From positions 186,001-250,000 of the forward strand of contig JAJDTB010000027.1 of assembly GCA_022827345.1 (NCBI GenBank): DNA of 64,000 nt. Reading direction: 5' to 3'. Made by a program: the position numbers and the translations under genes. The notes beneath the pieces were generated by a model. It was not told where the DNA came from. It saw only the letters and a list, made by a program, of their open reading frames with translations, and did not search any database. This DNA comes from Gemmatimonadota bacterium. GTDB lineage: Bacteria > Gemmatimonadota > Gemmatimonadetes > Longimicrobiales > Gaopeijiaceae. Positions 6,243 through 63,469 of the stretch are shown here, piece after piece (within the stretch, counting starts at the first letter, position 1; every line of letters begins with the position of its first letter).

Positions 6243-6281
6243 TGTAATGTCAACATTACATTTTGTCATGTTGCCTTTACA
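6243..6281. repeat. 39-bp AT-rich double dyad, copy A
   Basis: On the minus strand it reads TGTAA-N8-TGACA, three bases, then TGTAA-N8-TTACA; the second unit has both half-sites perfect. The two 18-bp units begin 21 bp apart. It lies between the convergent M20 peptidase and trpE genes and covers the trpE stop codon. Related copies are at 30140 and 55931. It stands out as AT-rich in very GC-rich surroundings. Confidence 0.75.
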
Positions 6282-7771
6282 GATGTGGCCATGGCCGCCG
6301 CCCGCAGCAGAGCCCGCGCCTTGTTCATGGTCTCCTCGTATTCGGACTCCGGATCCGAGTCGGCGACGATGCCGGCCCCGGCCTGCACATGCGCGAACCC
6401 GTCCCGGACGATCATGGTCCGAATCGCGATCGCGGTATCCATTTGGCTTGCACCCCAACCCAGGTGCCCGACCGCCCCGGCGTACGGACCCCGCGCGGTG
6501 GGCTCGATCTCGTCGATAATCTCCATCGCGCGCACCTTCGGCGCCCCCGAAACGGTCCCCGCGGGGAAGCAGGCGCTCAGCACGTCCAGCGCGGTGAGCC
6601 CGTCGCGCACGTCCCCCTCGACCTGGCTGCAGAGGTGCATGACATGGGAGTAGAGCTCGACCTTCATCAATTCGGGCACCGTGACCGTGCCGTACCGCGA
6701 GACCCTGCCCACGTCATTCCTGCCCAGGTCGACCAGCATCCGGTGCTCGGCGAGCTCCTTCTCGTCGGCGGCCAGCTCCCTGGCCAACGCGCGATCCTCG
6801 GTGCGGGTGCGCCCCCGCTTCCTGGTGCCCGCGATGGGGCGCACCGTCACCACGCCGTCTTCGAGCCGAACGAGCACCTCGGGCGACGACCCGACGATGT
6901 TGAAGTCTCCGAAGTCGAGGTTGAACAGATAGGGCGACGGGTTGATCGTGCGCAGCGCGCGGTACAGCCGGAACGGCGACTCGTCGAAACGGGTGGAGAG
7001 CCGCTGGCTCAGCACGACCTGGAAGGCGTCGCCGGCGGCGATGTAGTCCAGCGCGCGCTCGACGCCTTCAATGAAGTCCTCCCGCTCGACGTTGCTGGTG
7101 TATTCGACTTCGGTGGCTGCGGCCGGCGCGAGGTCGAGCGGTTCGGGGGCCTCCCGGGAGCGCAGCCGGCCGACCGTGTCGTCGAGTCTGGCCACCGCGT
7201 CGCTGTAGAGCGCCGTCAGCTCGGCCCGCGAGGTCGCCTCGGAGGTGTTCACGGTCGTGATCGCCCTGGCGCGGCCGAGCAGGTTGTCCACCGCCACCAC
7301 CACGTCGGAGAACATGAACATGGACGTGGGCAGTCCCTGGTCGTCGGGAGGCCCGGCGCCCAGGCGTTCGATGCGGCGAACCAGGTCGTATCCGAAGTAC
7401 CCCACGGCGCCTCCCCAGAAGCGCGGCAGCCGCGGATCGGGCCTGGGCTCGGCATCCTTGAGCCGCGCGAGGAGGTCCGCCAGCGGATCGGCCACCCTCT
7501 TCGGGCGCCACCCCCGTCCGGGCTCCCAGATCGAGACCTCGTCGCCGTCCAGCATCCAGGCCATGCGGGGACGGCTTCCCAGGAAGCTGTAGCGCGCCCA
7601 CTGCTCACCGCCGACCACCGACTCGAGGAGGAAGCCGAAGGAGCCGTCCTTCAGCTTGTGATAGGCGGTTACGGCGGTGTCGGAATCGAAGAGCAACTCG
7701 CACCAGACCGGGATTCGAAGTCCCGGCCGGGCGCTGTCCAGAAACGATTCGAGGGAGGGTTTGACGTCCAA
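6266..7771 (-). CDS. trpE: Anthranilate synthase component I
   Basis: It converts chorismate (with ammonia or glutamine via TrpG) to anthranilate, the first step of tryptophan synthesis. 501 residues. The tryptophan feedback site is present near the N-terminus (GFLLESV, RYSFLGSRP). The chorismate-binding core has PSPYLFNLDFGDFNIVGSSP, PIAGTRKRG, LVDLGRNDVGRVS and GTVSGAPKVRAMEIIDE. The PIAGT motif, rather than the PIKGT seen in PabB, favours TrpE. I start at a TTG (7771) because the longer frame is not protein-like and homologues begin close to this point. No trpG or other trp gene is adjacent. The last codons lie inside the 39-bp dyad repeat. Confidence 0.93.
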   Translation of the reverse strand: MDVKPSLESFLDSARPGLRIPVWCELLFDSDTAVTAYHKLKDGSFGFLLESVVGGEQWARYSFLGSRPRMAWMLDGDEVSIWEPGRGWRPKRVADPLADLLARLKDAEPRPDPRLPRFWGGAVGYFGYDLVRRIERLGAGPPDDQGLPTSMFMFSDVVVAVDNLLGRARAITTVNTSEATSRAELTALYSDAVARLDDTVGRLRSREAPEPLDLAPAAATEVEYTSNVEREDFIEGVERALDYIAAGDAFQVVLSQRLSTRFDESPFRLYRALRTINPSPYLFNLDFGDFNIVGSSPEVLVRLEDGVVTVRPIAGTRKRGRTRTEDRALARELAADEKELAEHRMLVDLGRNDVGRVSRYGTVTVPELMKVELYSHVMHLCSQVEGDVRDGLTALDVLSACFPAGTVSGAPKVRAMEIIDEIEPTARGPYAGAVGHLGWGASQMDTAIAIRTMIVRDGFAHVQAGAGIVADSDPESEYEETMNKARALLRAAAMATSVKAT

Positions 7772-24466: not shown

Positions 24467-26155
24467 TCAACCCTCCCAGGTCACCCGTCCCCCCGCCACC
24501 GTCCGCAGCACCGGAATCTCCTTGATCGCATCCGGATCCGCATCGTGCGGGTCCGACGCCAGCACCACGAAGTCGGCCAGTTTGCCAGCCGTCACCGAGC
24601 CCTTCAGGTCCTCCTCGAACGACGCATAGGCCCCGCCCATCGTGCAGATCCGCATCGCCTCGGGCACGGTGATCCTCTGGCTGGGTCCCCAGACGCGCCC
24701 GTCGAAGTCCTTGCGCGTGACCATGCTCTGGATCGCCATCAGCGGCTCGTAGGGGCCGGGTGTGTAGTCCGACGCCGGCGCAACCGGAATTTCGTAGTCG
24801 AGAAACGAACGGTGGGCGAACATCCACTCCATCTTCTCGGGCCCGTACTCGACCCACTTGTTGCCGTGGTAGTGGGCGTAGGTGTAGAAGGGCGTCGGCA
24901 CCGCCCCGGCGGCCTTGATCCGCGCCAGAAGGTCGGGGTTCACGAGCGAGCAGTGTTCGATGCGGTGCCTCGGGTTCGGCCGCGGCCACAGCTCCTGGAC
25001 GCGCTCGTAGGCGTTGAGCACCATGTCGATCGTGACGTCGCCGTTGGCGTGGATCCCCACCTGCCAGTTCGCACGGTGTGCCACCTCGACCGCCTCGTGG
25101 ATTTCTTCCTGGTCCATGGTGAGGATACCGTAGTCGTCCGGGCGGCCCACGTACGGCGTGCTCATGCGCATCGTGCGCTCGGAGGCCGAGCCGTCGGCGC
25201 CGTACTTGACCCCGCCCACCCGCAGCCACTCGTCGCCGAGTCCGGTCGAGACGCCCGCCTGGCGGAGGTAGCTGTAAGGTCCACGCAACATCATGTAAAC
25301 CCGACATGACAGTTCGTCCGCGGCATAGGCGGCCTGATAGGCCCGCATGCTGTTGGCCGAGGTCCCCGCGTCGTGAAACGAGGTCAGCCCTTCCCGCGCC
25401 ATCAGCTCGGTGATCAGCTTCACGCCGGCGCGCCGATCGTCATCCGAGTGCATGTTCGGGATCAGCGACGAGAAGACGTAGTTCGCGCGCTCGGCGACCA
25501 GACCCGTCAGTTCACCGTCCTCGCGGTAGAAGGCTCCGCCGCGCGGATCGGGAGTCTCGGCCGTAATCCCCGCGAGCGCGAAGGCGCGCGAGTTGTACAC
25601 GCTGGTGTGCCCGCCCCGATGCCCCACCACGGCCGGGTGGTCCGGCACCGCCTCGTCCAGGTCGAGCCGGTTCAGCGGCCGCCCCTCGGCCAGCTTGGTG
25701 TCGTCGTACTTGAAGCCCTGGATCCACTCGCCGGGCGGTGTCTCGCGGGCTCGCGCCGCCATCAGCTCCTTGATCTCGGCGACGCTGCGCACGTCGACGT
25801 TCACGTCCTTGAGCTCGCGCACCCCCGCGCCGGCCGGGTGCGTGTGGGCGTCGATGAAGCCCGGGGTGATCACCGCGTCCCCGTGGTCCATGACCGTCGT
25901 GCCGGCCCCGCGCAGGTTCTCCACATCGTCGCGCGACCCGACCGCCACGAAGCGCCCGTTCCTCACGGCGAGCGACTCGGCCGTCGGGTTGTCCTCATCC
26001 ATCGTGTGGATGGCGCCGCCGTGGACGATCAGGTCGGCACCGAGGCCGCCGGCATCGCCGGTGCCGCCCGATCCCGGCTCGCAGCCGCTCAGCAAACCCG
26101 CCCCCGCCGTGCCCGCCGCCATGCCCAGGAACTGTCCCCGCGTCACTGACTTCAT
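24467..26155 (-). CDS. Exported amidohydrolase-family protein (Amidohydro_3, YtcJ-like)
   Basis: 562 residues. The N-terminus TRGQFLGMAAGTAGAGLLSGC looks like a Tat-type or Sec lipoprotein signal with a lipobox Cys. The catalytic barrel has the HTH metal motif (GFIDAHTHPAG), HIEHCS-type block (RHRIEHCSLV), GIHANGD and a final metal Asp in APASDYTPG. The C-terminal beta-sandwich carries GKLADFVVLASDP. These are metal-dependent hydrolases acting on C-N bonds; the substrate is not predictable. A GGAGG lies eight bases before the ATG. Downstream of lepB on the same strand. Confidence 0.88.
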   Translation of the reverse strand: MKSVTRGQFLGMAAGTAGAGLLSGCEPGSGGTGDAGGLGADLIVHGGAIHTMDEDNPTAESLAVRNGRFVAVGSRDDVENLRGAGTTVMDHGDAVITPGFIDAHTHPAGAGVRELKDVNVDVRSVAEIKELMAARARETPPGEWIQGFKYDDTKLAEGRPLNRLDLDEAVPDHPAVVGHRGGHTSVYNSRAFALAGITAETPDPRGGAFYREDGELTGLVAERANYVFSSLIPNMHSDDDRRAGVKLITELMAREGLTSFHDAGTSANSMRAYQAAYAADELSCRVYMMLRGPYSYLRQAGVSTGLGDEWLRVGGVKYGADGSASERTMRMSTPYVGRPDDYGILTMDQEEIHEAVEVAHRANWQVGIHANGDVTIDMVLNAYERVQELWPRPNPRHRIEHCSLVNPDLLARIKAAGAVPTPFYTYAHYHGNKWVEYGPEKMEWMFAHRSFLDYEIPVAPASDYTPGPYEPLMAIQSMVTRKDFDGRVWGPSQRITVPEAMRICTMGGAYASFEEDLKGSVTAGKLADFVVLASDPHDADPDAIKEIPVLRTVAGGRVTWEG

Positions 26156-28625: not shown

Positions 28626-28808
28626 TCACCCACGGCCACCCTCCCCTCGCTGCGTCGCCTGCCGCGGAGCGCCGGGATCGGGTTGCGGCGCGCTCGCCTG
28701 CGCATCGCCGCGCCTGTGCACCCGGTACGCCGCCGTCACCAGGACGATGCCCGGCACGACGGCGAACGCCATCAGCACCCAGGTCCCGGCCGGGAGACCG
28801 CCGATCAC
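28626..28808 (-). CDS. Small one-TM protein, probable symporter accessory protein
   Basis: 60 residues from a GTG that overlaps the aminotransferase stop (GTGA). GTWVLMAFAVVPGIVLVTAAY is a single TM segment, preceded by a short N-terminus and followed by a basic, Pro/Gln/Gly-rich tail. Small accessory membrane proteins encoded just before SSS symporters are known. It ends 20 bases before the symporter start. Its position between two coupled genes makes it credible despite low information content. Confidence 0.7.
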   Translation of the reverse strand: MIGGLPAGTWVLMAFAVVPGIVLVTAAYRVHRRGDAQASAPQPDPGAPRQATQRGEGGRG

Positions 28809-30118
28809 CTGGCCGCCTCCACCGCCGCACAGGCCCGCCCCAGCCGCTCGACCGCCTCGTCCGCCTCGGCCTCCGAGATCAGCAGCGACGGCCCCAGCCG
28901 GATGACGTGGCCGTGCAGGCCGCCGATCCCGATCAGCAGGCCCTCGTCCCTGGCCGCGCTGAGCAGCATGCCCGCCAGGCGCGGCGCGGGCTCCTTGGTA
29001 ACCGGGTCCTCCACGAGCTCCAGCGCCTGCATCAGGCCCATGCCGCGGACCTCGCCGATCCAGGGGTGGATGGCGGCCAGGCGGTCGAGCGCGCCGCGCA
29101 GCTGCGTCCCGCGTTCCCGCGCCCGGCTCGGCACGTCCTCGGCCTGCATGACCCCCAGCGTGGCCACCATCGCGGCCATGCAAATCGGGTTGCCGCCGAA
29201 GGTCGAGAGGGTCTTGCCGCGCCAGCTCCCGGCGATCTCGTCGGTCGTGATGGTGGCGCCGACGGGCATGCCTCCCGCGATCCCCTTCGCCATCACCATG
29301 ATGTCGGGGACCACGCCCCAGTGCTCGATCCCGAACCAGCGGCCGCCGGTGCGCCCGAATCCGGCTTGCACCTCGTCCGAGATGAAGAGGCCGCCGTACG
29401 ACCGGATGATGTCGGCCATGCGCTGGAAGTAGCCGCGCGGGGGCACGATGTACCCGCCGACGCCCTGGATGGTCTCGGCGATGAAGGCGGCGGGACGGCC
29501 GTTGGTGGTGGTCTCGATGACTTCGATGAGGTCCTGGGCGTAGATCTCGACCAGCTCCTCGTCGGAGGCGTCGCCGAAGGGGGCGCGGTACGGGTATGGC
29601 GAGAGGGCGTGCGTGACCCCGGTCGAGGTGGCGGGGAGGACCCGCCAAGGCGCGTGCGCGGTGACCGCGGACGCCATGCTGGTGCGGCCGTGGTACGCCT
29701 GGCGCAGCGCGATGATCTCGGTGCGGCCCGTGTGCAGGCGCGCCGCCTGCAGCGCCGTCTCGATCGCCTCGGCCCCGCTGTTCAGGAAAAAGGTGCGGCG
29801 CAGGTCGCCCGGCGCGATCCCGGCCAGGCCGCGCGCCGCCTCGACCTGTCGGTCGTTGACGTAGAGCGTGGAGAGATGGCCGACGCGGGCCGCCTGTTCC
29901 TGCACGGCCGCGACCACCGCCGGGTGGCAGTGCCCCAGCGACGTGGTGAGGATCCCCGCGAAGGCGTCCAGATACTCGCGCCCGTCGAAGTCCTTCACCC
30001 GGCAGCCCTTGCCCTCGGCGATCGCCAGCGGCTCCTGGTAGAGCGGGATCACGCAGTCGAAGATGTACTTCCGCTGCTCGGCGAAGATCTCGGCGCCGCG
30101 GCTCGCTACTGCTTCCAT
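28805..30118 (-). CDS. Class III aminotransferase (AGXT2 / beta-alanine-pyruvate type)
   Basis: A PLP enzyme of fold type I, 437 residues. FLNSGAEAIETALQAAR and AYHGRTSMA bind the cofactor; SDEVQAGFGRTG has the PLP-ring Asp; the Schiff-base Lys is in VMAKGIAGGMP; TFGGNPICMAA and a C-terminal RLGPSL complete the pattern. Sequence style fits AGXT2-like and omega-amino-acid:pyruvate aminotransferases. Together with the upstream MmsA-like dehydrogenase it would convert beta-alanine (or 3-aminoisobutyrate) to a semialdehyde and then to acyl-CoA. ATG at 30118 has GGAG at good spacing. The 39-bp dyad copy B lies just upstream. Confidence 0.88.
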   Translation of the reverse strand: MEAVASRGAEIFAEQRKYIFDCVIPLYQEPLAIAEGKGCRVKDFDGREYLDAFAGILTTSLGHCHPAVVAAVQEQAARVGHLSTLYVNDRQVEAARGLAGIAPGDLRRTFFLNSGAEAIETALQAARLHTGRTEIIALRQAYHGRTSMASAVTAHAPWRVLPATSTGVTHALSPYPYRAPFGDASDEELVEIYAQDLIEVIETTTNGRPAAFIAETIQGVGGYIVPPRGYFQRMADIIRSYGGLFISDEVQAGFGRTGGRWFGIEHWGVVPDIMVMAKGIAGGMPVGATITTDEIAGSWRGKTLSTFGGNPICMAAMVATLGVMQAEDVPSRARERGTQLRGALDRLAAIHPWIGEVRGMGLMQALELVEDPVTKEPAPRLAGMLLSAARDEGLLIGIGGLHGHVIRLGPSLLISEAEADEAVERLGRACAAVEAAR

Positions 30119-30139: not shown

Positions 30140-30178
30140 TGACAACTACACATTACATATTGTAATGTTGAGATTACA
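30140..30178. repeat. 39-bp AT-rich double dyad, copy B
   Basis: Plus strand: TGACA-N8-TTACA, three bases, TGTAA-N8-TTACA, with the second unit perfect. Units begin 21 bp apart. It lies in the 68-base gap between the aldehyde dehydrogenase stop and the aminotransferase start, both on the minus strand. Confidence 0.78.
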
Positions 30179-30186
30179 TTGGGCTC

Positions 30187-31644
30187 TTACCATCGCGAAA
30201 TCACCACGCGCTGGTCCGTGAAGAACGAAACCGCGTCCCGCCCCTGTGCCTTCAGGTCGCCGTAGAAGGAGTTCCGCGTTCCGCCGAAGGGGAAGAAGGC
30301 CATCGGCGCGGCGACCCCGATGTTGACCCCGATCATCGAGATGCCGGCGCGGTAGCGGAACTCCCGCGCGGCGCGGCCCGAGTTGGTGAAGATCGAGGCG
30401 GCGTTACCGTAACGGCTCTTCGCCAGCATGTCGAGCGCGGCCTCCAGGCTGGGCGCCCGCGCCAGCCCGGCGACCGGGCCGAACACCTCTTCGCTGCCGA
30501 TCGGCATCTCGGGCGTGACGTCCTCGAAGACGGTGGGGCCGACCCAGTGGCCGCGCGGATACCCCGCCACGCTCGCGCCGCGGCCATCCAGGAGCAGCCG
30601 CGCGCCATCCCGCTCGCTCTCGTCGATGAATGCGGTGACGCGGTCGCGGTGCGCTCCGGATATCACGGGTCCCATGTCGACGCCGTCGTCGAGTCCCCGC
30701 CCCACCTTCAGCGACGCCGCGCCGTCCAGGACGCCTTCGCGCATCGGTCCGTAGGCGTCGCCCACCCCCACCACCACCGACCCCGCCAGGCAGCGCTGCC
30801 CCGCGGACCCGAACACCGAGCTCACCACCGCCTCCGCCACCATCTCCGGGTCGGCGTCCGGCAGCACGATCATGTGGTTCTTGGCCCCGCCCAGCGCCTG
30901 CACCCGCTTCCCCGCCGCGCCCGCGCGCTGATAGACGATCTTCGCCACCTGGCTCGACCCCACGAACGACACCCCCACCACGCCCGGGTGGTCGATCAGC
31001 GCCTCCACCGTCCCCTTGCGGCCGTGCACCACGTTCAGCACCCCGGGAGGCAGCCCCGCCTGCTCGGCCAACTCGACCACGCGCTGGTGCGTGAGCGGAT
31101 CCTGCTCGCTCGGCTTGAGGACGACCGTGTTGCCCGCGGCGACCGCGTACGGCCAGAACCAGAGCGGGATCATCACGGGGAAGTTGTACGGGGTGATCAC
31201 CGCGAAGACGCCGATCGGCTGGCGCACCGTCTCGCAATCGACGCCGCGGGCGATGTCCTCCAGGGTGTCGCCCATCATGAGCGTAGGCATGCCGGCGGCG
31301 TGCTCGACGTTCTCGATGCCGCGCTGTACCTCGCCCCACGTCTCCGCGACGTTCTTGCCGTGTTCGCGCGAAAGGCTCACCGCGAGGTCGTCGTGGTGCT
31401 CGTCCAGCAGCGCCTTGAGGCGGAAGAAGACGCGCGCGCGCTCCGGGACGGGGGTGCGGCGCCAGGCGGGGAAGGCTGCGCTGGCGGCGGCGACGGCGCG
31501 GTCGACCTCGGTCCGCCCCGAGTCGGGGACGGCGCCAAGGGCCTCGCCGGTCGCCGGGTCGGTGACGGGGAGTCTCTCGCAGGCATCCCCTGGTGACCAC
31601 TCACCGGCTATGTAATTGGCCGCGAGGCCGCGTGGGGTCGTCAT
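30187..31644 (-). CDS. mmsA: CoA-acylating methylmalonate/malonate-semialdehyde dehydrogenase
   Basis: 485 residues with the MmsA type of aldehyde dehydrogenase pattern. YIAGEW opens the fold; QPIGVFAVITPYNFPVMIPL and NTVVLKPSEQDP form the NAD-binding core; FVGSS and ALGGAKNHMIVLPDAD are typical of MmsA; the catalytic Cys is in GSAGQRCLAGS. It oxidises (methyl)malonate semialdehyde with NAD and CoA to propionyl- or acetyl-CoA plus CO2. ATG at 31644 overlaps the EVE gene stop (ATGA). The downstream aminotransferase and symporter fit catabolism of beta-alanine or valine/pyrimidine breakdown products. Confidence 0.9.
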   Translation of the reverse strand: MTTPRGLAANYIAGEWSPGDACERLPVTDPATGEALGAVPDSGRTEVDRAVAAASAAFPAWRRTPVPERARVFFRLKALLDEHHDDLAVSLSREHGKNVAETWGEVQRGIENVEHAAGMPTLMMGDTLEDIARGVDCETVRQPIGVFAVITPYNFPVMIPLWFWPYAVAAGNTVVLKPSEQDPLTHQRVVELAEQAGLPPGVLNVVHGRKGTVEALIDHPGVVGVSFVGSSQVAKIVYQRAGAAGKRVQALGGAKNHMIVLPDADPEMVAEAVVSSVFGSAGQRCLAGSVVVGVGDAYGPMREGVLDGAASLKVGRGLDDGVDMGPVISGAHRDRVTAFIDESERDGARLLLDGRGASVAGYPRGHWVGPTVFEDVTPEMPIGSEEVFGPVAGLARAPSLEAALDMLAKSRYGNAASIFTNSGRAAREFRYRAGISMIGVNIGVAAPMAFFPFGGTRNSFYGDLKAQGRDAVSFFTDQRVVISRW

Positions 31645-53997: not shown

Positions 53998-55207
53998 CGG
54001 CCCGGAGAGTTCGGGGCGGGGCGGGGCGACAAGGGAGACCCGGCGTCTCCCTCTGCTGTTCCTTACGGTACTGGTCGACCTCGTCGGTTTCGGCATCGTA
54101 CTGCCGCTCCTCCCTCTCTATGCCCGTGATTTCGGTGCCGACGGGATTCAGACGGGACTGCTGGTCAGCGTCTATTCCCTCGTGCAGCTCGTCATGGCAC
54201 CGATCTGGGGACGGATTTCCGATCGGGTGGGACGGCGTCCGGTCCTCATACTGGGACTTCTGGGAAGCGGGGCGGCGTACCTGGTGTTCGCGAATGCCGG
54301 TTCGCTGGCCACGCTGTTCCTTTCCCGCATCGTGGGCGGGATCGGGGGCTCCACCATTCCCGTGGCGCAGGCCTACATCGCCGATGTGACGCCTCCCGAG
54401 CGGAGAGCCGGCAACATGGGGCTGATCGGCGCCGCCTTCGGACTCGGCTTCGTCATCGGCCCCATGCTGGGCGGCATTCTCTCGGGAGTGTCGCCCGGCG
54501 CCCCGACCGCCCCGGGCTACACCGCCGCGGCACTCTGCGTCCTCAACGCCTTCGCAGCCGTCCTCTTCCTGCCCGAATCGCGCCGGCCCGGCGTCACCGC
54601 CAGGACCGGGCGCTTCAATCTGCGCAGCTCGGTGGCCCACGCCGCCTCGTCCCGGCAGATCCTCTTCATCCTCGGGACCTACCTGGTCGTGACGATGGCC
54701 TTCGCCACCCTTCAGCCGACCCTGTCGCTGCTCGCAGCCGCGCGGTTCGGGCTGGGAGCCCGCGAGGCGGGGTACCTGTTCGCGCTGCTGGGAGTGGTCT
54801 CGGCAATCGTTCAGGGTGGGCTCGTGCGCAGGATCGTGCCCCGAACCGGTGAACGCTCCCTCCTGCTCCTCAGTGCGTTGCCGTTTTGCCTCGGACTGAT
54901 CGTCATGGGCGCATCCGCGACCACGCCCGGCTTCCTTGCCGGCCTGGTCCTGGTCGGCATCGGCTACGGCGGCACGATCCCCAGTGTGCTGGGACTCCTG
55001 TCGCGCTCGGTCGAGCCGAAGCGGCAGGGTGCGATTCTGGGGCTGGGCCAGAGCGTGGGCTCCCTGGCGCGGGTGCTGGGACCGGGCATGGCCGGCGCGC
55101 TCTTCGACGTGCGCCTGTCGCTGCCCTATTTCGCGGGCGCGATGCTCATTGTCGCGGCCACCCTGCTGGCGGGCAGGGTGCGCCAACCCGGGGAGCAGTC
55201 CGCGTGA
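53978..55207 (+). CDS. Major facilitator superfamily transporter (TetA/DHA1-like)
   Basis: 409 residues from a TTG within the end of tatA. Twelve TM segments. The DHA1 motif A is present as MAPIWGRISDRVGRRPVLILG and motif C as GAAFGLGFVIGPMLGG. LVDLVGFGIVLPLLPLYA at the start is typical of TetA(C)-like and multidrug exporters. The proton-driven substrate is unknown. The stop overlaps the next GTG (GTGA). Confidence 0.88.
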   Translation: MTTGNASGPESSGRGGATRETRRLPLLFLTVLVDLVGFGIVLPLLPLYARDFGADGIQTGLLVSVYSLVQLVMAPIWGRISDRVGRRPVLILGLLGSGAAYLVFANAGSLATLFLSRIVGGIGGSTIPVAQAYIADVTPPERRAGNMGLIGAAFGLGFVIGPMLGGILSGVSPGAPTAPGYTAAALCVLNAFAAVLFLPESRRPGVTARTGRFNLRSSVAHAASSRQILFILGTYLVVTMAFATLQPTLSLLAAARFGLGAREAGYLFALLGVVSAIVQGGLVRRIVPRTGERSLLLLSALPFCLGLIVMGASATTPGFLAGLVLVGIGYGGTIPSVLGLLSRSVEPKRQGAILGLGQSVGSLARVLGPGMAGALFDVRLSLPYFAGAMLIVAATLLAGRVRQPGEQSA

Positions 55208-55935
55208 GCCTGACCGTCGTCCTCCACGAACCCCAGGATCTCGTGAACATCGCCGGGGTCGTGCGGGCGATGGCCAACATGGGACTGTTGCGCCTAACCG
55301 TGGTCGACCCGGCGGAGTTCGACCCGTGGAGGATTACGGGGATCGCGCACAGGACCAACCACATCGTGGACCGCATCAGGCGGGCCGACACCCTGGACGA
55401 GGCGCTTGCGGACGCAACGTACGTGGTGGGCACATCGGCGCGTGCGCGCACCGCGCAGCGCAACTACCGCCGCCCGCGCGAACTGGCCGCCACGATGCAA
55501 CGGCGTTCCCGTGAAGGTTCGGTCGCGCTCGTCTTCGGACGCGAAGACCGCGGCCTCTCGAACGAAGCGCTCGATCGCTGTCACGACGTGCTGGTCATCC
55601 CCACCGACCCGGAGCATTCGTCGCTCAATCTGGCCCAGGCCGTCCTGCTGATCAGCTACGAGCTCTTTCTGGCCGGGGGCATCGAACCGGAGCCTCTGCC
55701 GCGGGGGAAGCGGTCGCTGGGGCCCGCAACGGCTGCCGAGCTCGAAGAGATGTACGGCGCGCTGAAGCAGGGACTGGCCCGGATCGAGTTCTTCAAGGCC
55801 CGCAAGCCCGAGAGCGTGATGAGGGTCCTTCGCACCATCTTCGGGCGCACCGGCCTGGACGCGCACGAAGCCCGCCTCGTGCGTTCGATCGGGTACGAAC
55901 TGCGGAACTGGGCCGACCGCCAGACCGATATGTAA
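55204..55935 (+). CDS. SPOUT tRNA/rRNA methyltransferase, TrmJ-like
   Basis: 243 residues from a GTG overlapping the MFS stop. SPOUT family features: LHEPQDLVNIAGVVRAMANMG at the N-terminus, ARTAQRNYRRPREL, LVFGREDRGLSNEALDRC (the knot's SAM-binding loop) and IPTDPEHSSLNLAQAVLLISYE. Members 2'-O-methylate position 32 of tRNA (TrmJ) or positions in rRNA. A C-terminal helical extension (about 180-243) resembles that of TrmJ. The stop codon lies inside the first half-site of the 39-bp dyad copy C. Confidence 0.88.
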   Translation: MSLTVVLHEPQDLVNIAGVVRAMANMGLLRLTVVDPAEFDPWRITGIAHRTNHIVDRIRRADTLDEALADATYVVGTSARARTAQRNYRRPRELAATMQRRSREGSVALVFGREDRGLSNEALDRCHDVLVIPTDPEHSSLNLAQAVLLISYELFLAGGIEPEPLPRGKRSLGPATAAELEEMYGALKQGLARIEFFKARKPESVMRVLRTIFGRTGLDAHEARLVRSIGYELRNWADRQTDM

Positions 55936-55969
55936 CGACAACATTACATGTTGTAATGTTTACCTTACA
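55931..55969. repeat. 39-bp AT-rich double dyad, copy C (best conserved)
   Basis: Plus strand: TGTAA-N8-TTACA, three bases, TGTAA-N8-TTACA; all four half-sites are perfect. The centre reads AACATTACA-TGT-TGTAATGTT, itself a palindrome. It overlaps the TrmJ-like stop codon and lies between convergent trmJ-like and actF genes. Confidence 0.82.
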
Positions 55970-55986: not shown

Positions 55987-57288
55987 CTACCCCTCCGCCT
56001 CAAGCGGCTCCGGGTCCACCGGCGGCTGCCAGATCTGCATCGCGGGGAAGGTCGACAGGAACCACCGCACCGAGATGAGGAACAGGCCCAGGAACATCAG
56101 GCCGATCAGAGGCGTCGCGACCGAGAACACGGGATCGCCCTCGTGGTGGAGAGACGGGAAGATCAGCATGTAGTGCCAGAGCCAGAGTCCCCCCAGCACC
56201 ACCATCGCAAAGCCCTGCAGGATCTGCGGCGTCTTCTTCGGGCGCACGCCGAGAAGGCCCCCGAACGGCACCACGAAGCAGAGCACGATCACCGCCGCCG
56301 AAAGGCCGCCCCAGGGATCGCCCACCCGCGTGTTGATCCACGCCTGTTCCCATGGAAGCTTGCCGTACCAGATCACGATGTACTGGGACCAGAAGAGATA
56401 GGTCCAGAAGACCGTGAAGGCGAAGGTGAGCTTGCCAAGATCCCACAGGACCGCGGGGCCGACGTGTTCCCTGAAGCCCGGAGTACGGCGCTTGAAGGCC
56501 ACCGCCGCCACGGCCGTCGCCGCGAAGCCGCTCCAGAAGGCCCCCATGAAGAACCACCCGCCGAAGAGCGTCGAGAACCAGTGGGGCTCCAGCGACATCG
56601 CCCAGTCGAAGACCAGCATGGTCATGACCGCCGCGTAGACCAGCACCATGACCGGTGCCAGACGCGTCATCCGCTGATAGCTGCGTTCCTCCTCGGCCTC
56701 CTGGCCCGCCCATCCCCGGATCAAGCGTCGGTGCCACCGGTTTCTGCTGCCGCTCGCGTCGCGCTCCGCCGCCGTCTGCGCCTGTCCCACCCTGCCCAGG
56801 TCGGGCCGAATGGCCAGGTAGACGAAGCCCAGCCCCAGGCCGAACAGGATCAGCACCCCCACGAAGTTCCGGCTCAGCAGGAACGGGAGGTTCAGCCAAG
56901 CGGCCTTTTTCTGCACGATCGGGTCGTGCGCCATCATCTCGATCCACGGGAAGTAGTCCTCCCGCAGGTTGAACAGCATGGGAAGGAACAGGATGAACGC
57001 GATCGGCAGGTAGGCCGCAAAGGACTGGTGGATCCGCCGCACGGACCAGTTCCATTTCGCCTTCACCATCCACGTGACCGCCGCGACCATGACCCCGCCC
57101 ATGGCGATCGACGTGAAGTAGTTCCAGTTGACGACGTACGACTTCCACGCCAGCCCGGGATCCCGGAACAGCGTGACGAAAAACGACACGACGCCCACCA
57201 GCACCATGAGCTGAAGCACTCTGCCGAGCAGGCCGCCGCGCTCCAGGTAGCGGACCGGGATCGAGCCGGGGATCGAGTGCGAACTCAT
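55987..57288 (-). CDS. actF: Alternative complex III subunit ActF, quinol oxidoreductase membrane subunit
   Basis: 433 residues, about ten TM segments of the NrfD-like type. Blocks such as AFWSGFAATAVAAVAFKRR, WDLGKLTFAFTVFWTYLFWS and IWYGKLPWEQAW are shared by ActF proteins. With ActC it forms the two quinol-binding-type membrane subunits of the complex, which passes electrons from quinol to cytochrome c or directly to the oxidase. It is last in the actA-F minus-strand operon, three bases from actE. No oxidase genes follow in the window. Confidence 0.93.
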   Translation of the reverse strand: MSSHSIPGSIPVRYLERGGLLGRVLQLMVLVGVVSFFVTLFRDPGLAWKSYVVNWNYFTSIAMGGVMVAAVTWMVKAKWNWSVRRIHQSFAAYLPIAFILFLPMLFNLREDYFPWIEMMAHDPIVQKKAAWLNLPFLLSRNFVGVLILFGLGLGFVYLAIRPDLGRVGQAQTAAERDASGSRNRWHRRLIRGWAGQEAEEERSYQRMTRLAPVMVLVYAAVMTMLVFDWAMSLEPHWFSTLFGGWFFMGAFWSGFAATAVAAVAFKRRTPGFREHVGPAVLWDLGKLTFAFTVFWTYLFWSQYIVIWYGKLPWEQAWINTRVGDPWGGLSAAVIVLCFVVPFGGLLGVRPKKTPQILQGFAMVVLGGLWLWHYMLIFPSLHHEGDPVFSVATPLIGLMFLGLFLISVRWFLSTFPAMQIWQPPVDPEPLEAEG

Positions 57289-57291
57289 CGG

Positions 57292-57945
57292 TCAGCTCCC
57301 CGCCGCGCCGGCCACGGCTGCGGCCGCGGGCCCCTGCAGCTGTCTCACGTAGTTCACGATGTGCCAGCGGTCGTAGTGGGTTATCTGGTGGCCGTAGCCC
57401 GGCATTACGCCGCGTCCCACCCGGATCATGCCGTAGATGTAGCCGTCGCTCCGGGCGATCGCGACATCGCCGTTCAGCGGATAGGCGGCCATGAGCGGAT
57501 GGAGTTCGAAGATGTAGCCGGTGGTGCCGGCCCCGTCCGGTCCGTGGCAGACGATGCACACCCGCTCGTAGAGCTGCTCGCCGCGCGCCAGCGACTCCGG
57601 GGTCGGCGGCACCGGGTTGCTCAACGAATCGACCACCTCGGGCCGGTTGACGATGTCGTCCTGCGTGAAAGGCGGCGGCACGTCCGCAGCGCCCTCCGGC
57701 TGCCCCACATTGAGGTCGAAGGGCCCGGCCGGGTAGTTGCCCGCGGAGATCGGAACCGTGCCCTCCGGCGGCAGCAGCGTCATCTCGTAGGGGTCGAAGG
57801 AGGCCTGGTCGCGCATGCTGCGGCCGAAGATCGCCGCCATGGCATCGTCGAGGGGCGTGCACGCGCCGGTGCCCAGCACGGCCGCGCAGGCGGCCGCCAT
57901 CGCCGCCCGCCGGACGGGCAGCCGACCGCTCCTGGCCCTAGACAT
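57292..57945 (-). CDS. actE: Alternative complex III subunit ActE, monoheme cytochrome c lipoprotein
   Basis: 217 residues. Signal peptide ending in GTGAC (lipobox), so lipid-anchored on the periplasmic side. One CxxCH heme site in RVCIVCHGPDGAG; a later Met (VMPGYG) is the likely axial ligand. It passes electrons from the Act complex toward cytochrome c oxidase. The start overlaps actD by eight bases. Confidence 0.93.
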   Translation of the reverse strand: MSRARSGRLPVRRAAMAAACAAVLGTGACTPLDDAMAAIFGRSMRDQASFDPYEMTLLPPEGTVPISAGNYPAGPFDLNVGQPEGAADVPPPFTQDDIVNRPEVVDSLSNPVPPTPESLARGEQLYERVCIVCHGPDGAGTTGYIFELHPLMAAYPLNGDVAIARSDGYIYGMIRVGRGVMPGYGHQITHYDRWHIVNYVRQLQGPAAAAVAGAAGS

Positions 57946-58483
57946 CGAAGCCCTCCGGATCCTCCCGCAACTCGGCGGGCCCGAACCCCTCGAGGATCTC
58001 CTTCACCACATCGGCCCTGGCCGCCGGAGCGGTGACGTAAACGCCGAAGCTGCCGTTGGAGCACTCGGGGTGATACGCGACCATGCGCCGCAGGTTGGGC
58101 AGCCCCGCGTTGATGAAGAGCCCGATCACCGTGGACAGCGCACCGAAGAGGATCGCGCACTCGAAGGCGATCACCACGTAGGCCGGGATCGAGAAGATCG
58201 GCTTCCCTCCCGTGACCAGCGGCCAGTCCATCGATGTCCAGGTCGTGAAGGCGAATCCCGTCGCGGCACCCGTCATGGCGCCGGCCAGGGTGAACACGCG
58301 CACCGGGCTGTGCTTCAGGGCCAGGCCCTCTTCCAGGAGGTGGTGCTCGGGGAGCGGCGCGTAGGCCCGGAAGCCCTTGTGGCCCGCCGCCCGCAGCGCC
58401 TTGCACGCGTCGATGGTCGAGTCGAGGTGCTCGAAGAGCGCGAAGAAGCCCCGGTGCCCCTGACGACGCTTCGCCGGAATCAT
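57938..58483 (-). CDS. actD: Alternative complex III subunit ActD (DUF3341)
   Basis: 181 residues. Two central TM segments (VFTLAGAMTGAATGFAFTTW and PAYVVIAFECAILFGALSTV). The cytoplasmic parts have GFFALFEHLDSTIDACKALR and YHPECSNGSFGVYVTAP, typical of DUF3341. It has no cofactor and is structural. ATG at 58483 overlaps the actC stop (ATGA). Confidence 0.93.
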   Translation of the reverse strand: MIPAKRRQGHRGFFALFEHLDSTIDACKALRAAGHKGFRAYAPLPEHHLLEEGLALKHSPVRVFTLAGAMTGAATGFAFTTWTSMDWPLVTGGKPIFSIPAYVVIAFECAILFGALSTVIGLFINAGLPNLRRMVAYHPECSNGSFGVYVTAPAARADVVKEILEGFGPAELREDPEGFDV

Positions 58484-59853
58484 GTCGCGGCCTCCTCGCT
58501 GCCGCGCATCGGAGGCGGCACCACTTCCTTCATCTCGGCGATCGCCACCGGTGGCAGCAATCGTGTAAAGAGCAGGAACCAGAACCCGAACCAGGCGAAG
58601 CTGCCCAGCAGGATCCCCATCTCGATGACCGACGGACGGTACAGCCCCCACGCCCACGGCTCGTACTCGTGCGACAGCGACGTGACGATGATCACGTAGC
58701 GCTCGAACCACATCCCGATGTTGATGAAGATCGAGATCACGAACAGCGCCGCGATCGATCTTCGCACCCGCTTGAACCAGAGCATGAGCGGTACAAAGCC
58801 GTTGCAGGTCAGCATGATCCAGTTCGCCCACCAGTAGTGCCCGAACACCCGGTTCCAGAACGACCCGCGCTCGGGCGGCTCACCCGAGTACCACGCCAGG
58901 AAGTACTCGGTGAGATAGGCGTACAGCACGATGCTGCTGGTGAGCAGGCACAGCTTCGCCATGGCCTCGAAGTGCTTGACGGTCAGATAATCCTCGAGCC
59001 CGAAGAACTTGCGCATCGGGACCGCCAGCGTGATCACCAGCCCGACCCCCGAGAAGATCGCCCCGGCCACGAAGTACGGCGCGAAGATCGTGGTGTGCCA
59101 CCCCGGCACGATCGCCATGGCGAAGTCCCACGACACCACGGAGTGCACGGAGAGCACCAGCGGTGTCGCGAGCGCGGCCAGGTAGATGTATGCCTTCGAG
59201 AAGTGGTGCCACTCACGGTCCGTGCCGCGCCACCCGAGCGAGATGATCTGGTAGAACTTCTTGCGCAGGCCGCGGGCCTGATCGCGCGCGGCCGCCAGAT
59301 CGGGGATCGTGCCCAGGTAGAAGAAGACGGCCGACACCGTGAAATAGGTCGTGATCGCGAAGACGTCCCAGACCAGCGGCGAGCGGAAGTTCGGCCACAG
59401 GAAACGCGAGTTCGGGTAGGGGATCAGCCAGTACGCGTGCCACACCCGGCCGACGTGGATGAGCGGGAACAGCCCCGCCGTCATCACCGCGAAGACGGTC
59501 ATCGCCTCCGATGCGCGGTAGATCGCCTGCCGCCATGGAGCGCGGAAGAGGAAGAGAATCGCCGAAATCAGCGTGCCCGAGTGCGCGATCCCGACCCAGA
59601 ACACGAAGGTGGTGATGTAGACGCCCCACCCGACCGGCGCGTTCAGTCCCGAGACACCGATCCCCTTGTAGATCTGCCAGAACCAGCAGGCCAGGAAGAC
59701 CGCCACGCCTGTCGCGGCCATGCCGAAGAGGATCCACCAGCCCTTGCCGGGCCGGGACAGCACCTTGAGGACATCGCGGTTGACGGCCTCGTAGGTCCCC
59801 ACGTCGGGGTTCGGCAGCGTCCCCCGCTGCTGCCTCAGCTCTGCGGTCGTCAT
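58480..59853 (-). CDS. actC: Alternative complex III subunit ActC (NrfD-like quinol-binding membrane subunit)
   Basis: 457 residues, ten TM segments. The NrfD/PsrC fold is seen as GVYITTFVFWVGIAHSGTL (the H in this block is part of the quinol site region), FWPNFRSPLVWDVFAITTYF and SVHSVVSWDFAMAIVPGWH. It binds quinol near the periplasmic side and may conduct protons. It begins directly after the actB stop and overlaps actD. Confidence 0.95.
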   Translation of the reverse strand: MTTAELRQQRGTLPNPDVGTYEAVNRDVLKVLSRPGKGWWILFGMAATGVAVFLACWFWQIYKGIGVSGLNAPVGWGVYITTFVFWVGIAHSGTLISAILFLFRAPWRQAIYRASEAMTVFAVMTAGLFPLIHVGRVWHAYWLIPYPNSRFLWPNFRSPLVWDVFAITTYFTVSAVFFYLGTIPDLAAARDQARGLRKKFYQIISLGWRGTDREWHHFSKAYIYLAALATPLVLSVHSVVSWDFAMAIVPGWHTTIFAPYFVAGAIFSGVGLVITLAVPMRKFFGLEDYLTVKHFEAMAKLCLLTSSIVLYAYLTEYFLAWYSGEPPERGSFWNRVFGHYWWANWIMLTCNGFVPLMLWFKRVRRSIAALFVISIFINIGMWFERYVIIVTSLSHEYEPWAWGLYRPSVIEMGILLGSFAWFGFWFLLFTRLLPPVAIAEMKEVVPPPMRGSEEAAT

Positions 59854-62800
59854 CTAGTGTCCGCCCCCTTCCACGTCGTGAAAGGTGACCTTCTTGAGGT
59901 AGTGGACGGCGGGCTGTGTGTTGATGAGAGCATCCAGCACGCGGTAGGTGCGCTCGTCTTCCGCCAGCGCCGCGACCTGCGAATCGTGGTCCTTGATGTT
60001 GCCGAAGCTGATGACGTCGCTCGGACACACGCTCTGGCAGGCCGTGTACACCTCGCCGTCGCGGACCTCGCGTCCCTCGACCGCCGCGCGGTTCCCGGCC
60101 TCGCGGATTCGCTGCACGCAGAAGGTGCACTTCTCCATGACGCCGTTGTCGCGAACCGTCACGTCCGGGTTGAACTGCCAGTTCATCGGCTCGGGGATCT
60201 CCCGGGTGTACCGGTACCAGTTGAAGACCCGGACCTTGTACGGGCAGTTGTTGGCGCAGTAGCGCGTCCCCACGCAGCGGTTGTAGGCCTGCGCGTTGAG
60301 CCCGTCGGGGGTGTGATAGGCGGCGAAGACCGGGCAAACCGGCTCGCACGGCGCATTGTTGCAGTGCTGGCAGAGCATCGGCAGGAAGCGGATGTCCACC
60401 GGGCCGGAGTGGGACGCGTCGACGGTCTCGTAGTACCGCTCGAGGCGCATCCAGTGCATCTCGCGCCCCATCGTGGCCTGCATCTCGCCGACCCACGGGA
60501 TGTTGTTCTCGGCCTGGCACGCCGTAATGCAGGCCCCGCACCCCGTGCACTTGTCGAGGTCCATCGCCATCGCCCACCTGGGGTGGTCCTCGCCGTAGGT
60601 GCCGAAGTCGGAACCGGGCAGCGGGAAGTCCTCCGCGCGACCCTCGGTGTCCACCGTGCGGAAACCGCCGCCCTCCTGCAGCTCGCGGAGCTGGCCGTGG
60701 CCGTCCTCGGCTTCGTGATCCGCCTCCTCCCCGGCGTGGCCCAGCGCGGCCAGCGCCACAGCGGGCGTCACGTTGCGGTCGTCCTGAACCTCGGAGCCCT
60801 CGTTGGTGGTCAGTCGGCGCCACGCCCCCGTCGCGGTGACCGTCGCCCGGGTCGACACCAGCGCGACCGCACCCGAATGGGCGTCGCTGGCGCCGTTGAG
60901 CAGCCCCATGGGATTGACCCCGTTGCCGTTTGCGTACTGGCCGTAGTCGGTGTGGCCGCCGCCCATCGCGATGGCCACCGCATCCTCGCGGATGCCGGGA
61001 TAGGCCCAGACGGGCACTTCGACCGAACCCGCGGCCGTGGCGACCGTCACGATGTCGCCCTCGCGCAGCCCCATGCGCTCCACCGTGGCCGGATTCATCT
61101 CCACCCAGGCGTGCCACATGATCTTCGAGACCGGGTCCGGCAGCTCCTGGAGCCAGGGCCGGTTCGCGTGCGTCCCGTCGCCGAAGCGCGGCGAGGGGTA
61201 CACCAGCAGCGTCAGCTCCCCGTCGCCTCCGATATCGGGAGCGTCGAAGCTGACGGCCGTGGTCGGGGACTGCAGCGCGTCGATCGAGGGCGTCGCGTCG
61301 GCATAGGATACCGAGCCGGTTCGCAGCGCCGTCCGCCAAAGCGCGTTCGGGTCGCCGACGACGCCGGCGGCCTCGCCGTTCCGGGTGAGCCAGAGGTCGA
61401 AGGCACCCCGCAGATACTCGTGGAAGGTGCCCGCGCCGAGATCATTGCCCATGCGCCGGGCCGTATCGAGAAGCACGTCGGCCATCGGCCGCGAATCGAA
61501 CATCGGCAGCGGACGCATGGCCGGCTGCCGGACCGCATAGGTGCCGGGCGCCGGCATGCTGTCACCCCACGACTCCAGCGGATGCGCGTCGGGCAGCACC
61601 AGGTCGGCCAGCGACGAGGTTTCGTCGAGCGCCGTGGCGAACGCCACCTTGAAGGGCACGCCCGCGTACGCTTCGCCAAAGCCCGATCCGGACGGCAGCG
61701 AGTAGGCCGGATTCGTGCCCGACACCACCGCAACGCCGTACTCGCCGGCTTCCATGTCGGCGATGGCATCCCCCATCGCGCCGTAGGCGGACGCCCCGGC
61801 GTCGGGCGCTGCGTCGACGTGCATGGTCCGCCCGAGACTGCCGGCCGCGACGTTCAGGATCAGGACCGCAAGGTTGGCCGCGGTCGCGCCGGTGTGCTGC
61901 CCGGCAAGACCGGGTCCCAGCGCAAGCGCATCGCCAGCCGCGAAGTGATCCGCCAGCGCGCCCAGCGCCTCGGCCTCGACCCCGGCCGCCTCGGCAGCGT
62001 CCTCGAGGGAGTACCGCGCCACCATGTCGGTGTAGGGGCCCGCATCCCCGCCCCGGCGCACCAGCTCGCCCGCCAAAGCGAGCGCGATCGCGGCCTCTGA
62101 ACCGGCCTGCGCGGGGATCCACTCGTCCGCGTTCTGTCCCGTAAGCGACAGCCGCGGCCCCACGAAGACGAAGCGGCCCTTCTCGCCGTGATCCACCCCG
62201 TGCATGCTGGCGAAGTCGGCGGCGAACGTCACCGGCGAGATCCACGTCTCGAGGAAGTCGGCACCGAAGGAGACCAGGAAGCGCGCAGCCGCAATGTCGT
62301 ACCTGGGCAGTGCGCTGACCCCGAACGCGATGTTGACCGCCTCGCGCAGCGCCGCGTCGTCGAGCGCGTCGTGGATGACGTGCTGCCCGTTGAGCGAGCC
62401 GGCCAGCTCTCCCAGGAGCATCTGTTCGGTGGGGCCTCTCGTTCCCGTGAGGAAGAGAGGCCGGCCGCCCGCACTCAGCCGCTCGGCAAGAAGCGCCGAG
62501 GCTTCGTCCCATCCGATCGGCTCGAAGCCGTTCGGTCCGGCACGGAGGGGCGTTGCCAACCGGTCGGGATTGTACAGCCCCTGCAGCGCGGAGACGCCCC
62601 GCGAACAGAGGCCGCCCTTCGACACGGGATGATCCGGGTTGCCCTCGATCATCACTGCGCGTCCCTCGCGGGTCCTCACCCGCACCCCGCACCCGCTCGA
62701 GCACTCGCCGCAGGTCGACGCGTACCAGGTCGCGACCCCCGGCGTGATCTCCTCCGGCGGCGTCACGTACGGGATCAGTCGCTCGATTTCGCCCGTGGAG

Positions 62801-62877
62801 CACCCGGCAACGGTCGCACCTGCACCCCCGGCGCCGAGGACCTTGAAGAAATCGCGCCGCTTGAGGCCGTCGCTCAT
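59854..62877 (-). CDS. actB: Alternative complex III subunit ActB, fused molybdopterin-enzyme-like and iron-sulfur domains
   Basis: 1007 residues. Twin-arginine signal (KRRDFFKVLG). The N-terminal domain (about 45-700) has the molybdopterin oxidoreductase fold; the C-terminal ferredoxin domain (about 770-1000) has four cysteine clusters (CTGCGACITAC, CQHCNNAPCEPVC, CVGTRYCANNCPYK, CTFCVQRI with ACQSVCP). Those bind the three [4Fe-4S] and one [3Fe-4S] known in the complex. The N-terminal domain also keeps C56-x2-C59-x3-C63 and C91, the cluster pattern of true Mo/W enzymes. Electrons from quinol pass through these clusters to the cytochromes. Confidence 0.95.
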   Translation of the reverse strand: MSDGLKRRDFFKVLGAGGAGATVAGCSTGEIERLIPYVTPPEEITPGVATWYASTCGECSSGCGVRVRTREGRAVMIEGNPDHPVSKGGLCSRGVSALQGLYNPDRLATPLRAGPNGFEPIGWDEASALLAERLSAGGRPLFLTGTRGPTEQMLLGELAGSLNGQHVIHDALDDAALREAVNIAFGVSALPRYDIAAARFLVSFGADFLETWISPVTFAADFASMHGVDHGEKGRFVFVGPRLSLTGQNADEWIPAQAGSEAAIALALAGELVRRGGDAGPYTDMVARYSLEDAAEAAGVEAEALGALADHFAAGDALALGPGLAGQHTGATAANLAVLILNVAAGSLGRTMHVDAAPDAGASAYGAMGDAIADMEAGEYGVAVVSGTNPAYSLPSGSGFGEAYAGVPFKVAFATALDETSSLADLVLPDAHPLESWGDSMPAPGTYAVRQPAMRPLPMFDSRPMADVLLDTARRMGNDLGAGTFHEYLRGAFDLWLTRNGEAAGVVGDPNALWRTALRTGSVSYADATPSIDALQSPTTAVSFDAPDIGGDGELTLLVYPSPRFGDGTHANRPWLQELPDPVSKIMWHAWVEMNPATVERMGLREGDIVTVATAAGSVEVPVWAYPGIREDAVAIAMGGGHTDYGQYANGNGVNPMGLLNGASDAHSGAVALVSTRATVTATGAWRRLTTNEGSEVQDDRNVTPAVALAALGHAGEEADHEAEDGHGQLRELQEGGGFRTVDTEGRAEDFPLPGSDFGTYGEDHPRWAMAMDLDKCTGCGACITACQAENNIPWVGEMQATMGREMHWMRLERYYETVDASHSGPVDIRFLPMLCQHCNNAPCEPVCPVFAAYHTPDGLNAQAYNRCVGTRYCANNCPYKVRVFNWYRYTREIPEPMNWQFNPDVTVRDNGVMEKCTFCVQRIREAGNRAAVEGREVRDGEVYTACQSVCPSDVISFGNIKDHDSQVAALAEDERTYRVLDALINTQPAVHYLKKVTFHDVEGGGH

Positions 62878-62896
62878 GGGGACACCGGGAGGGGGA

Positions 62897-63469
62897 CTAG
62901 TAGTGGCATACCGTGCAGTCGCGGGAGGCCCCGCGCTCCAGATGGCAGGAAACGCACCAACCCATCTTCAGGTCGCCCGCCTCCGGGGCCACCTCCTCCA
63001 GCACCCCCATCTCCTGTACCTCGCCGTGGCAGGTCTGACACTCGACCCCGGCGGCGACGTGGCGGAAATGCGGGAAATTGACGTGATCGGAGACCTTGTA
63101 GATCCGGCGCCACGGAATCGGCGTGCCGGTATCGTGGTACTCCCGGACCTTGCTGATCTCTTCCGGATTGGTCCGTCCGTCGATGATCCCCACCTGGTGG
63201 CAGCCGATACAGGTAGCGACGGGTGGAATCCCGGCGTCGACCGACCGCTCAGCGGAGAAATGACAGTACTGACAGTCGATCAGCCACTGCCCGGCGTGGG
63301 TGTTGTGCGGGAACTGGATCGGCTGGGACAGATCGTCCGGTTGCGCGGTCTCGGCATCGCCGCCGCTCTCGGGGGTCTGCTGACCGCCGATCACGGCAAC
63401 CGCCAGGAAGATCGGGACCGCGACGACCGCGGCCACCAGCCACAACCTTTTCATATGAGAGGTAGGCAT
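62897..63469 (-). CDS. actA: Alternative complex III subunit ActA, pentaheme cytochrome c
   Basis: 190 residues. One N-terminal TM anchor (LWLVAAVVAVPIFLAVAVIG), then five CxxCH sites: CQYCH, CIGCH, CQTCH, CVSCH and CTVCH. It is the multiheme subunit that moves electrons from ActB toward cytochrome c. It leads the operon actABCDEF. A consensus promoter lies about 75 bases upstream. The ATG at 63454 is an alternative start. Confidence 0.95.
   Translation of the reverse strand: MPTSHMKRLWLVAAVVAVPIFLAVAVIGGQQTPESGGDAETAQPDDLSQPIQFPHNTHAGQWLIDCQYCHFSAERSVDAGIPPVATCIGCHQVGIIDGRTNPEEISKVREYHDTGTPIPWRRIYKVSDHVNFPHFRHVAAGVECQTCHGEVQEMGVLEEVAPEAGDLKMGWCVSCHLERGASRDCTVCHY

Follow-up and report, generated by a model that had tools for sequence, protein, structure and literature searches.

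SlmA, Noc and MatP/matS are chromosome-organizing families, in which one palindromic site occurs in many chromosomal copies. The HipB operators of E. coli hipBA read TATCC-N8-GGATA (PMC3376134), and EspR of M. tuberculosis, an autoregulated nucleoid-associated protein, occupies 165 loci, with 55% of its sites being intragenic (PMC3315491). We compared these systems to a 39-bp double dyad present in a stretch of 64,000 nucleotides from a Gemmatimonadota bacterium (the window). Copy C of this element (55931-55969, TGTAACGACAACATTACATGTTGTAATGTTTACCTTACA) has four perfect half-sites and no mismatch over the 20 fixed positions by which we scored all double dyads. It can be read as two TGTAA-N8-TTACA dyads, TGTAACGACAACATTACA-TGT-TGTAATGTTTACCTTACA, located at 55931-55948 and 55952-55969, whose starts lie exactly 21 bp apart, just as an earlier note on this DNA had described. 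The orthologous site in the sister species G009 retains the half-sites. Copy C is flanked by convergent genes, a TrmJ/SpoU methyltransferase gene (55204-55935, + strand), whose stop codon is the first TAA of the site (55933-55935), and a gene at 55987-57288 (- strand). An apparent alternative complex III (act) operon (55987-63454, - strand) adjoins copy C with its 3' end; it encodes a cytochrome, a molybdopterin/Fe-S protein, NrfD, ActD, a cytochrome c and a 433-aa protein, which has no Pfam match and resembles the NrfD-like member.

Two further copies in the window are likewise conserved in G009. Copy A (6243-6281, one mismatch) lies between the convergent genes for an M20 dipeptidase (4772-6151, + strand) and for anthranilate synthase (trpE, 6266-7771, - strand), with the final codons and the stop of trpE falling within the site. 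Copy B (30140-30178, two mismatches) is found between co-directional genes: in the direction of transcription, an aldehyde dehydrogenase gene (30187-31644, - strand) has its stop 8 bp before the site, and a class-III aminotransferase gene (28805-30118, - strand) starts 21 bp after it. The earlier note had seen three copies and nothing similar elsewhere in the window, and had placed them at gene 3' ends, not in promoters. Its three copies and the convergent settings of A and C stand, but copy B also precedes a gene start, and a weaker fourth copy with three mismatches (25273-25311) is located within an amidohydrolase gene (24467-26146, - strand). This fourth copy is found in G009 too, where coding conservation could account for its retention. 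The chance expectation for the copies in the window is 0.00, as estimated from dinucleotide shuffles. The AT-rich island is limited to the site itself, with GC content back at 66% more than 15 bp away.

The genome-wide search that the earlier note had proposed returned 94 places with up to two mismatches and 121 with up to three in the assembly containing the window (G000; 4.79 Mb, 75 contigs), and 0 places for a reversed-pattern control. With up to two mismatches, 22 of the 23 genomes of the genus contain 15-231 places each, the largest number being found in the 2.8-Mb genome G010. No place was detected in G008, which belongs to the same genus, or, at the two-mismatch threshold, in 36 genomes that share the family and order but not the genus; related genera hold at most one double dyad, that of the tf-modABC operon. 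The named relatives are Gemmatimonadota MAGs, e.g. COS4_bin_2, RHO1_bin_56, OX638356.1 and OX639991.1, and would be sponge-associated, to judge from their isolate names. In genome G060, three identical double dyads (C1:207279, 207528 and 207777) lie 249 bp apart, in a tandem array that carries the site. The consensus derived from 58 copies is TGTAAwGTnnACATTACA-twa-TGTAATGTnnACwTTACA, with G2, C17, G23 and C38 at 100%, and conservation reaches two bases outward of the 39-mer (AA-39-TT) and then ends. TGACA/TTGTCA is often found in place of TTACA in one half-site in G000 and G009, the mod operator included, which suggests a second accepted half-site. Dyad pairs within 120 bp of each other have the 21-bp spacing in 49 of 49 cases in each of two genomes, and most perfect 'isolated' dyads are accompanied by a decayed partner at the same 21-bp distance. 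Such strict spacing fits the proposal of the earlier note that two dimers would bind to one face of the DNA. An RNA hairpin or terminator was rejected, as pairing at positions 6/13 is not above that in shuffled sequences.

Exact double dyads from beyond the genus have a non-random placement: most of them mark the beginning of a small XRE gene whose product has an (S/T)RQTI-type recognition helix, or of an operon containing such a gene, in hosts from several phyla and in prophages. We observed them in Chryseobacterium, Planctomycetes, Bacteriovoracaceae, Bacilli, an archaeon and prophages (loci including L078, L084, L117, L133, L135 and L170-L180), and the small XRE gene is often accompanied by a gene for a membrane protein of 150-170 aa. 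There thus appears to be an autoregulatory operator class of small XRE genes that is conserved across phyla. The 11 exact viral matches are again found mostly at small XRE genes, and we discarded a phage origin of the element. A search profile (A2) built from twelve small XRE proteins gives a single strong match per site-bearing genome (22 genomes, E 1e-19 to 1e-22), and its best match in the site-less G008 reaches only 1.4e-7. The matched regulator of ~366 aa contains an N-terminal HTH_3 domain (residues 10-64), a helix-turn-helix of the XRE (Cro/CI) type, and a C-terminal PF12727 PBP_like domain (158-340), which is periplasmic-binding-protein-like. Its gene (G000:C32, about 211507-212616, - strand) lies outside the window and is the first of a molybdate-uptake operon, with the order tf-modA-modB-modC seen in G000, G021 and G010. 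In G000, modA and modB score above the NCBIfam cut-offs (TIGR01256, TIGR02141), and modC has TIGR02142 as its best match, below cut-off. A double dyad with 2-3 mismatches is positioned 56-134 bp upstream of the HTH in 22 of 22 site-bearing genomes, forming an autoregulatory operator. In G008, the regulator gene and all dispersed sites are both absent; its gpp34-modABC locus is otherwise intact, and gpp34 and modA are separated by 34 bp where the other genomes have the regulator.

In the 4.4 Mb of G033, from another genus, the single double dyad has a 22-bp spacing and lies at the genome's own tf-modABC, and tf-modABC of the further relatives L057 and L071 carries an exact double dyad with 21-bp spacing. 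In more distant members of the order, the XRE-PBP proteins have an SRQ(S/A)Y helix and the operators are only partial. On the strength of these sequence comparisons, the double dyad is very probably bound by the XRE-HTH/PBP-like regulator heading tf-modABC. The simplest history would be a single ancestral operator, followed by multiplication in this genus. PF12727 in the G000 regulator spans profile positions 6-192 of 193. The regulator of G010 (G010:C53, L322:3484-4269, - strand) is 261 aa long and matches only positions 3-78 of 193, since most of its PBP-like domain has been removed by an internal deletion, and it is in G010 that sites are most numerous (231). The combination of a truncated sensor and a maximum of sites, seen in one genome, argues that the dispersed sites need no ligand sensing. 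A limited literature search returned no paper on an XRE-PF12727 regulator, which is weak evidence of absence.

We assessed the position of the sites relative to genes as predicted by a simple purpose-written gene caller. The sites are almost all intergenic. Summed over genomes, 44 sites are found in convergent regions versus 26 expected by length, and 21 in divergent regions versus 36 expected; codirectional sites are closer to the upstream stop in 56 of 77 cases. The gene-end bias described in the earlier note is thus borne out by the counts. The convergent/divergent bias is strong in the window's genome and is not significant once that genome and its sister are left out (p ~0.11 and 0.12). 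The neighbouring gene uses the site's first TAA as its stop codon in 20 of 191 cases, as it does at copy C. Coding sequence and divergent promoters are avoided and gene 3' ends and convergent regions favoured, though not absolutely, with five divergent sites and six sites near called starts representing promoter-like placement in G000. In stretches partly picked around sites, 92 of 114 convergent gene pairs are without a site, and the sites are thus not a general terminator. A strict scan detected 0 intrinsic-terminator-like hairpins at 216 convergent 3' ends. We could thus not uphold the sites as a replacement for intrinsic terminators, as hairpins were found neither with nor without a site and there is hence no contrast between the two.

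The 14 ungapped orthologous pairs shared by G000 and G009 differ in 7 of 280 cells over the 20 fixed positions (2.5%) but in 56 of 266 cells over the 19 spacer positions (21%), with 288 of 3010 differing in the flanks. Between G000 and G002, which share ~84% protein identity at the compared genes, 9 of 140 core positions and 60 of 133 spacer positions differ. On the one contig of G000 and G009 compared end to end, which was not site-selected, six of seven sites in syntenic sequence are retained; the other compared stretches were partly picked around sites, and retention there is somewhat overstated. Roughly 7 of 20 G002 sites coincide with a G000 site, with 64 of the ~94 G000 sites compared, so that perhaps half of the sites are common to both. 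Copies A and C are absent in all more distant species tested. Low change in the core, high change in the spacers and the absence of A and C farther out together indicate that individual sites are under purifying selection, with turnover on a longer scale. By this pattern of divergence, the element is a protein-binding site and not a repeat element, as sharing and conservation are limited to the binding motif. The earlier note had argued for a nucleoid-organizing, roadblock or repeat element rather than a usual operator; of these the repeat falls away, and the double dyad is also the operator of the autoregulated XRE-PBP regulator of modABC.

Taken as a whole, we consider it probable that the sites bind two dimers of the mod regulator and that its operator has been multiplied under selection, most likely for a boundary role. 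Each copy would accommodate two dimers of the XRE-PBP regulator, whose ancestral role may have been to autoregulate the mod operon in response to molybdate or a related ligand, via a single double-dyad operator. In this genus, the operator would have multiplied to tens or hundreds of copies maintained by selection. Paired dimers tightly bound just past gene ends could then form a boundary, stopping or insulating transcription between neighbouring units, and the same protein may perhaps bridge sites as well. That such a boundary or roadblock is the main role of the extra sites is a tentative choice, which we favour over nucleoid architecture alone; the two are compatible.

Nucleoid architecture as the main role seems rather unlikely to us, yet it comes closest. 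Here, the regulator would have turned into an EspR-like nucleoid-associated protein engaged in bridging or looping, and placement at gene ends would merely spare promoters and coding sequence. The ~100-230 sites are indeed scattered chromosome-wide, and on the complete chromosome of G060 (OX639991.1) the gaps between them are near random. The ori/ter check suggested in the earlier note was run on two genomes with the origin position inferred from dnaA only, and it revealed no pattern: the relative distance from dnaA is 0.54 in G060 (p 0.11, not significant), and the spread in G059 is even. Ori/ter macrodomain sites were rejected on this basis. Neighbouring genes share no common function among the Pfam families listed, the regulator of the most site-rich genome has lost most of its ligand domain, and EspR provides a precedent for 165 loci combined with autoregulation (PMC3315491). 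However, the strict placement at gene ends and in intergenic DNA, together with the constraint seen at every single site, points to a local effect, and 55% of EspR sites are intragenic (PMC3315491), whereas the double dyads are almost all intergenic.

A classical large regulon, with many genes under molybdate-responsive promoter control, is improbable. It would be in line with the autoregulated mod operon and with the 32 G000 genes that have their start within 200 bp of a site. The sites are not mainly found upstream of genes, however, given the excess in convergent and the deficit in divergent regions, no molybdoenzyme family is among the 25 commonest neighbour Pfam families, and the ligand domain is truncated in G010. 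We give very little credence to a different protein of the same recognition class binding the dispersed sites in place of the mod regulator: small XRE proteins with this operator type are widespread, but there is just one strong family match per genome in 22 genomes, and G008, which has lost the regulator, has lost all sites too. It is equally doubtful that the extra sites are titration decoys buffering the free regulator concentration. Scattered positions and turnover between species would suit decoys, and titration would be meaningful given autoregulation, but selection on one among ~100 such sites would be too weak to explain why half-sites show an eightfold lower substitution rate than spacers do. 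A dispersed repeat or mobile element (REP/MITE-like) with incidental palindromes, for which an intergenic, 3'-end location like that of REP elements and the 249-bp tandem array of three copies in G060 could be invoked, can be practically dismissed, as nothing is shared past AA-39-TT, spacers vary freely among copies while the core is conserved, hairpin-type pairing is absent at positions 6/13, and the flanking homology of an insertion sequence or MITE is missing.

Returning to the boundary reading, it is conceivable that a metal-uptake repressor was recruited within one genus as a general gene-end boundary or architectural protein, with its operator at ~100-230 selected copies, and that one lineage then discarded the ligand domain while its sites increased. 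If true, the conversion of a one-operon regulator into a genome-wide DNA-binding protein could be traced inside a single genus, using a comparison series that comprises an ancestral state with one operator, a lineage without protein and without sites, and a truncated sensor with the most sites. The origin of global DNA-binding proteins would thus become testable by comparison, and the system may show how gene ends can be marked in genomes where a strict scan found no intrinsic terminators.

In contrast to the sites of SlmA, Noc and MatP/matS, the double dyad has no ori/ter-related distribution, is located at intergenic gene ends and serves as the operator of a transport operon. The domain make-up of ModE, a molybdate-responsive regulator, differs from XRE plus PF12727; the likeness would lie in the control of modABC, which we infer from gene order and operator. 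The operators of small XRE proteins (65-92 aa, (S/T)RQTI-type helix) have an identical double-dyad architecture, with exact matches beside the gene, and by this architecture the double dyad would belong to their operator type. These systems differ in that they lack a PBP domain, have their operator in the promoter rather than at gene ends and, at the loci seen, show a single site per genome. HipB resembles our candidate in being an XRE-type protein with 5-bp half-sites 8 bp apart and cooperative autoregulation (PMC3376134), but its half-site sequence is another one, its context is a toxin-antitoxin system and its operator is not present in ~100 copies. EspR is a virulence regulator that has a short degenerate motif, 55% intragenic sites and no PBP domain. 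It is also an autoregulated HTH regulator that acts as a dimer of dimers at more than 100 genomic loci beyond promoters (PMC3315491), a likeness reinforced by the 94-121 chromosome-wide double dyads in G000 and the up to 231 found in the genus.
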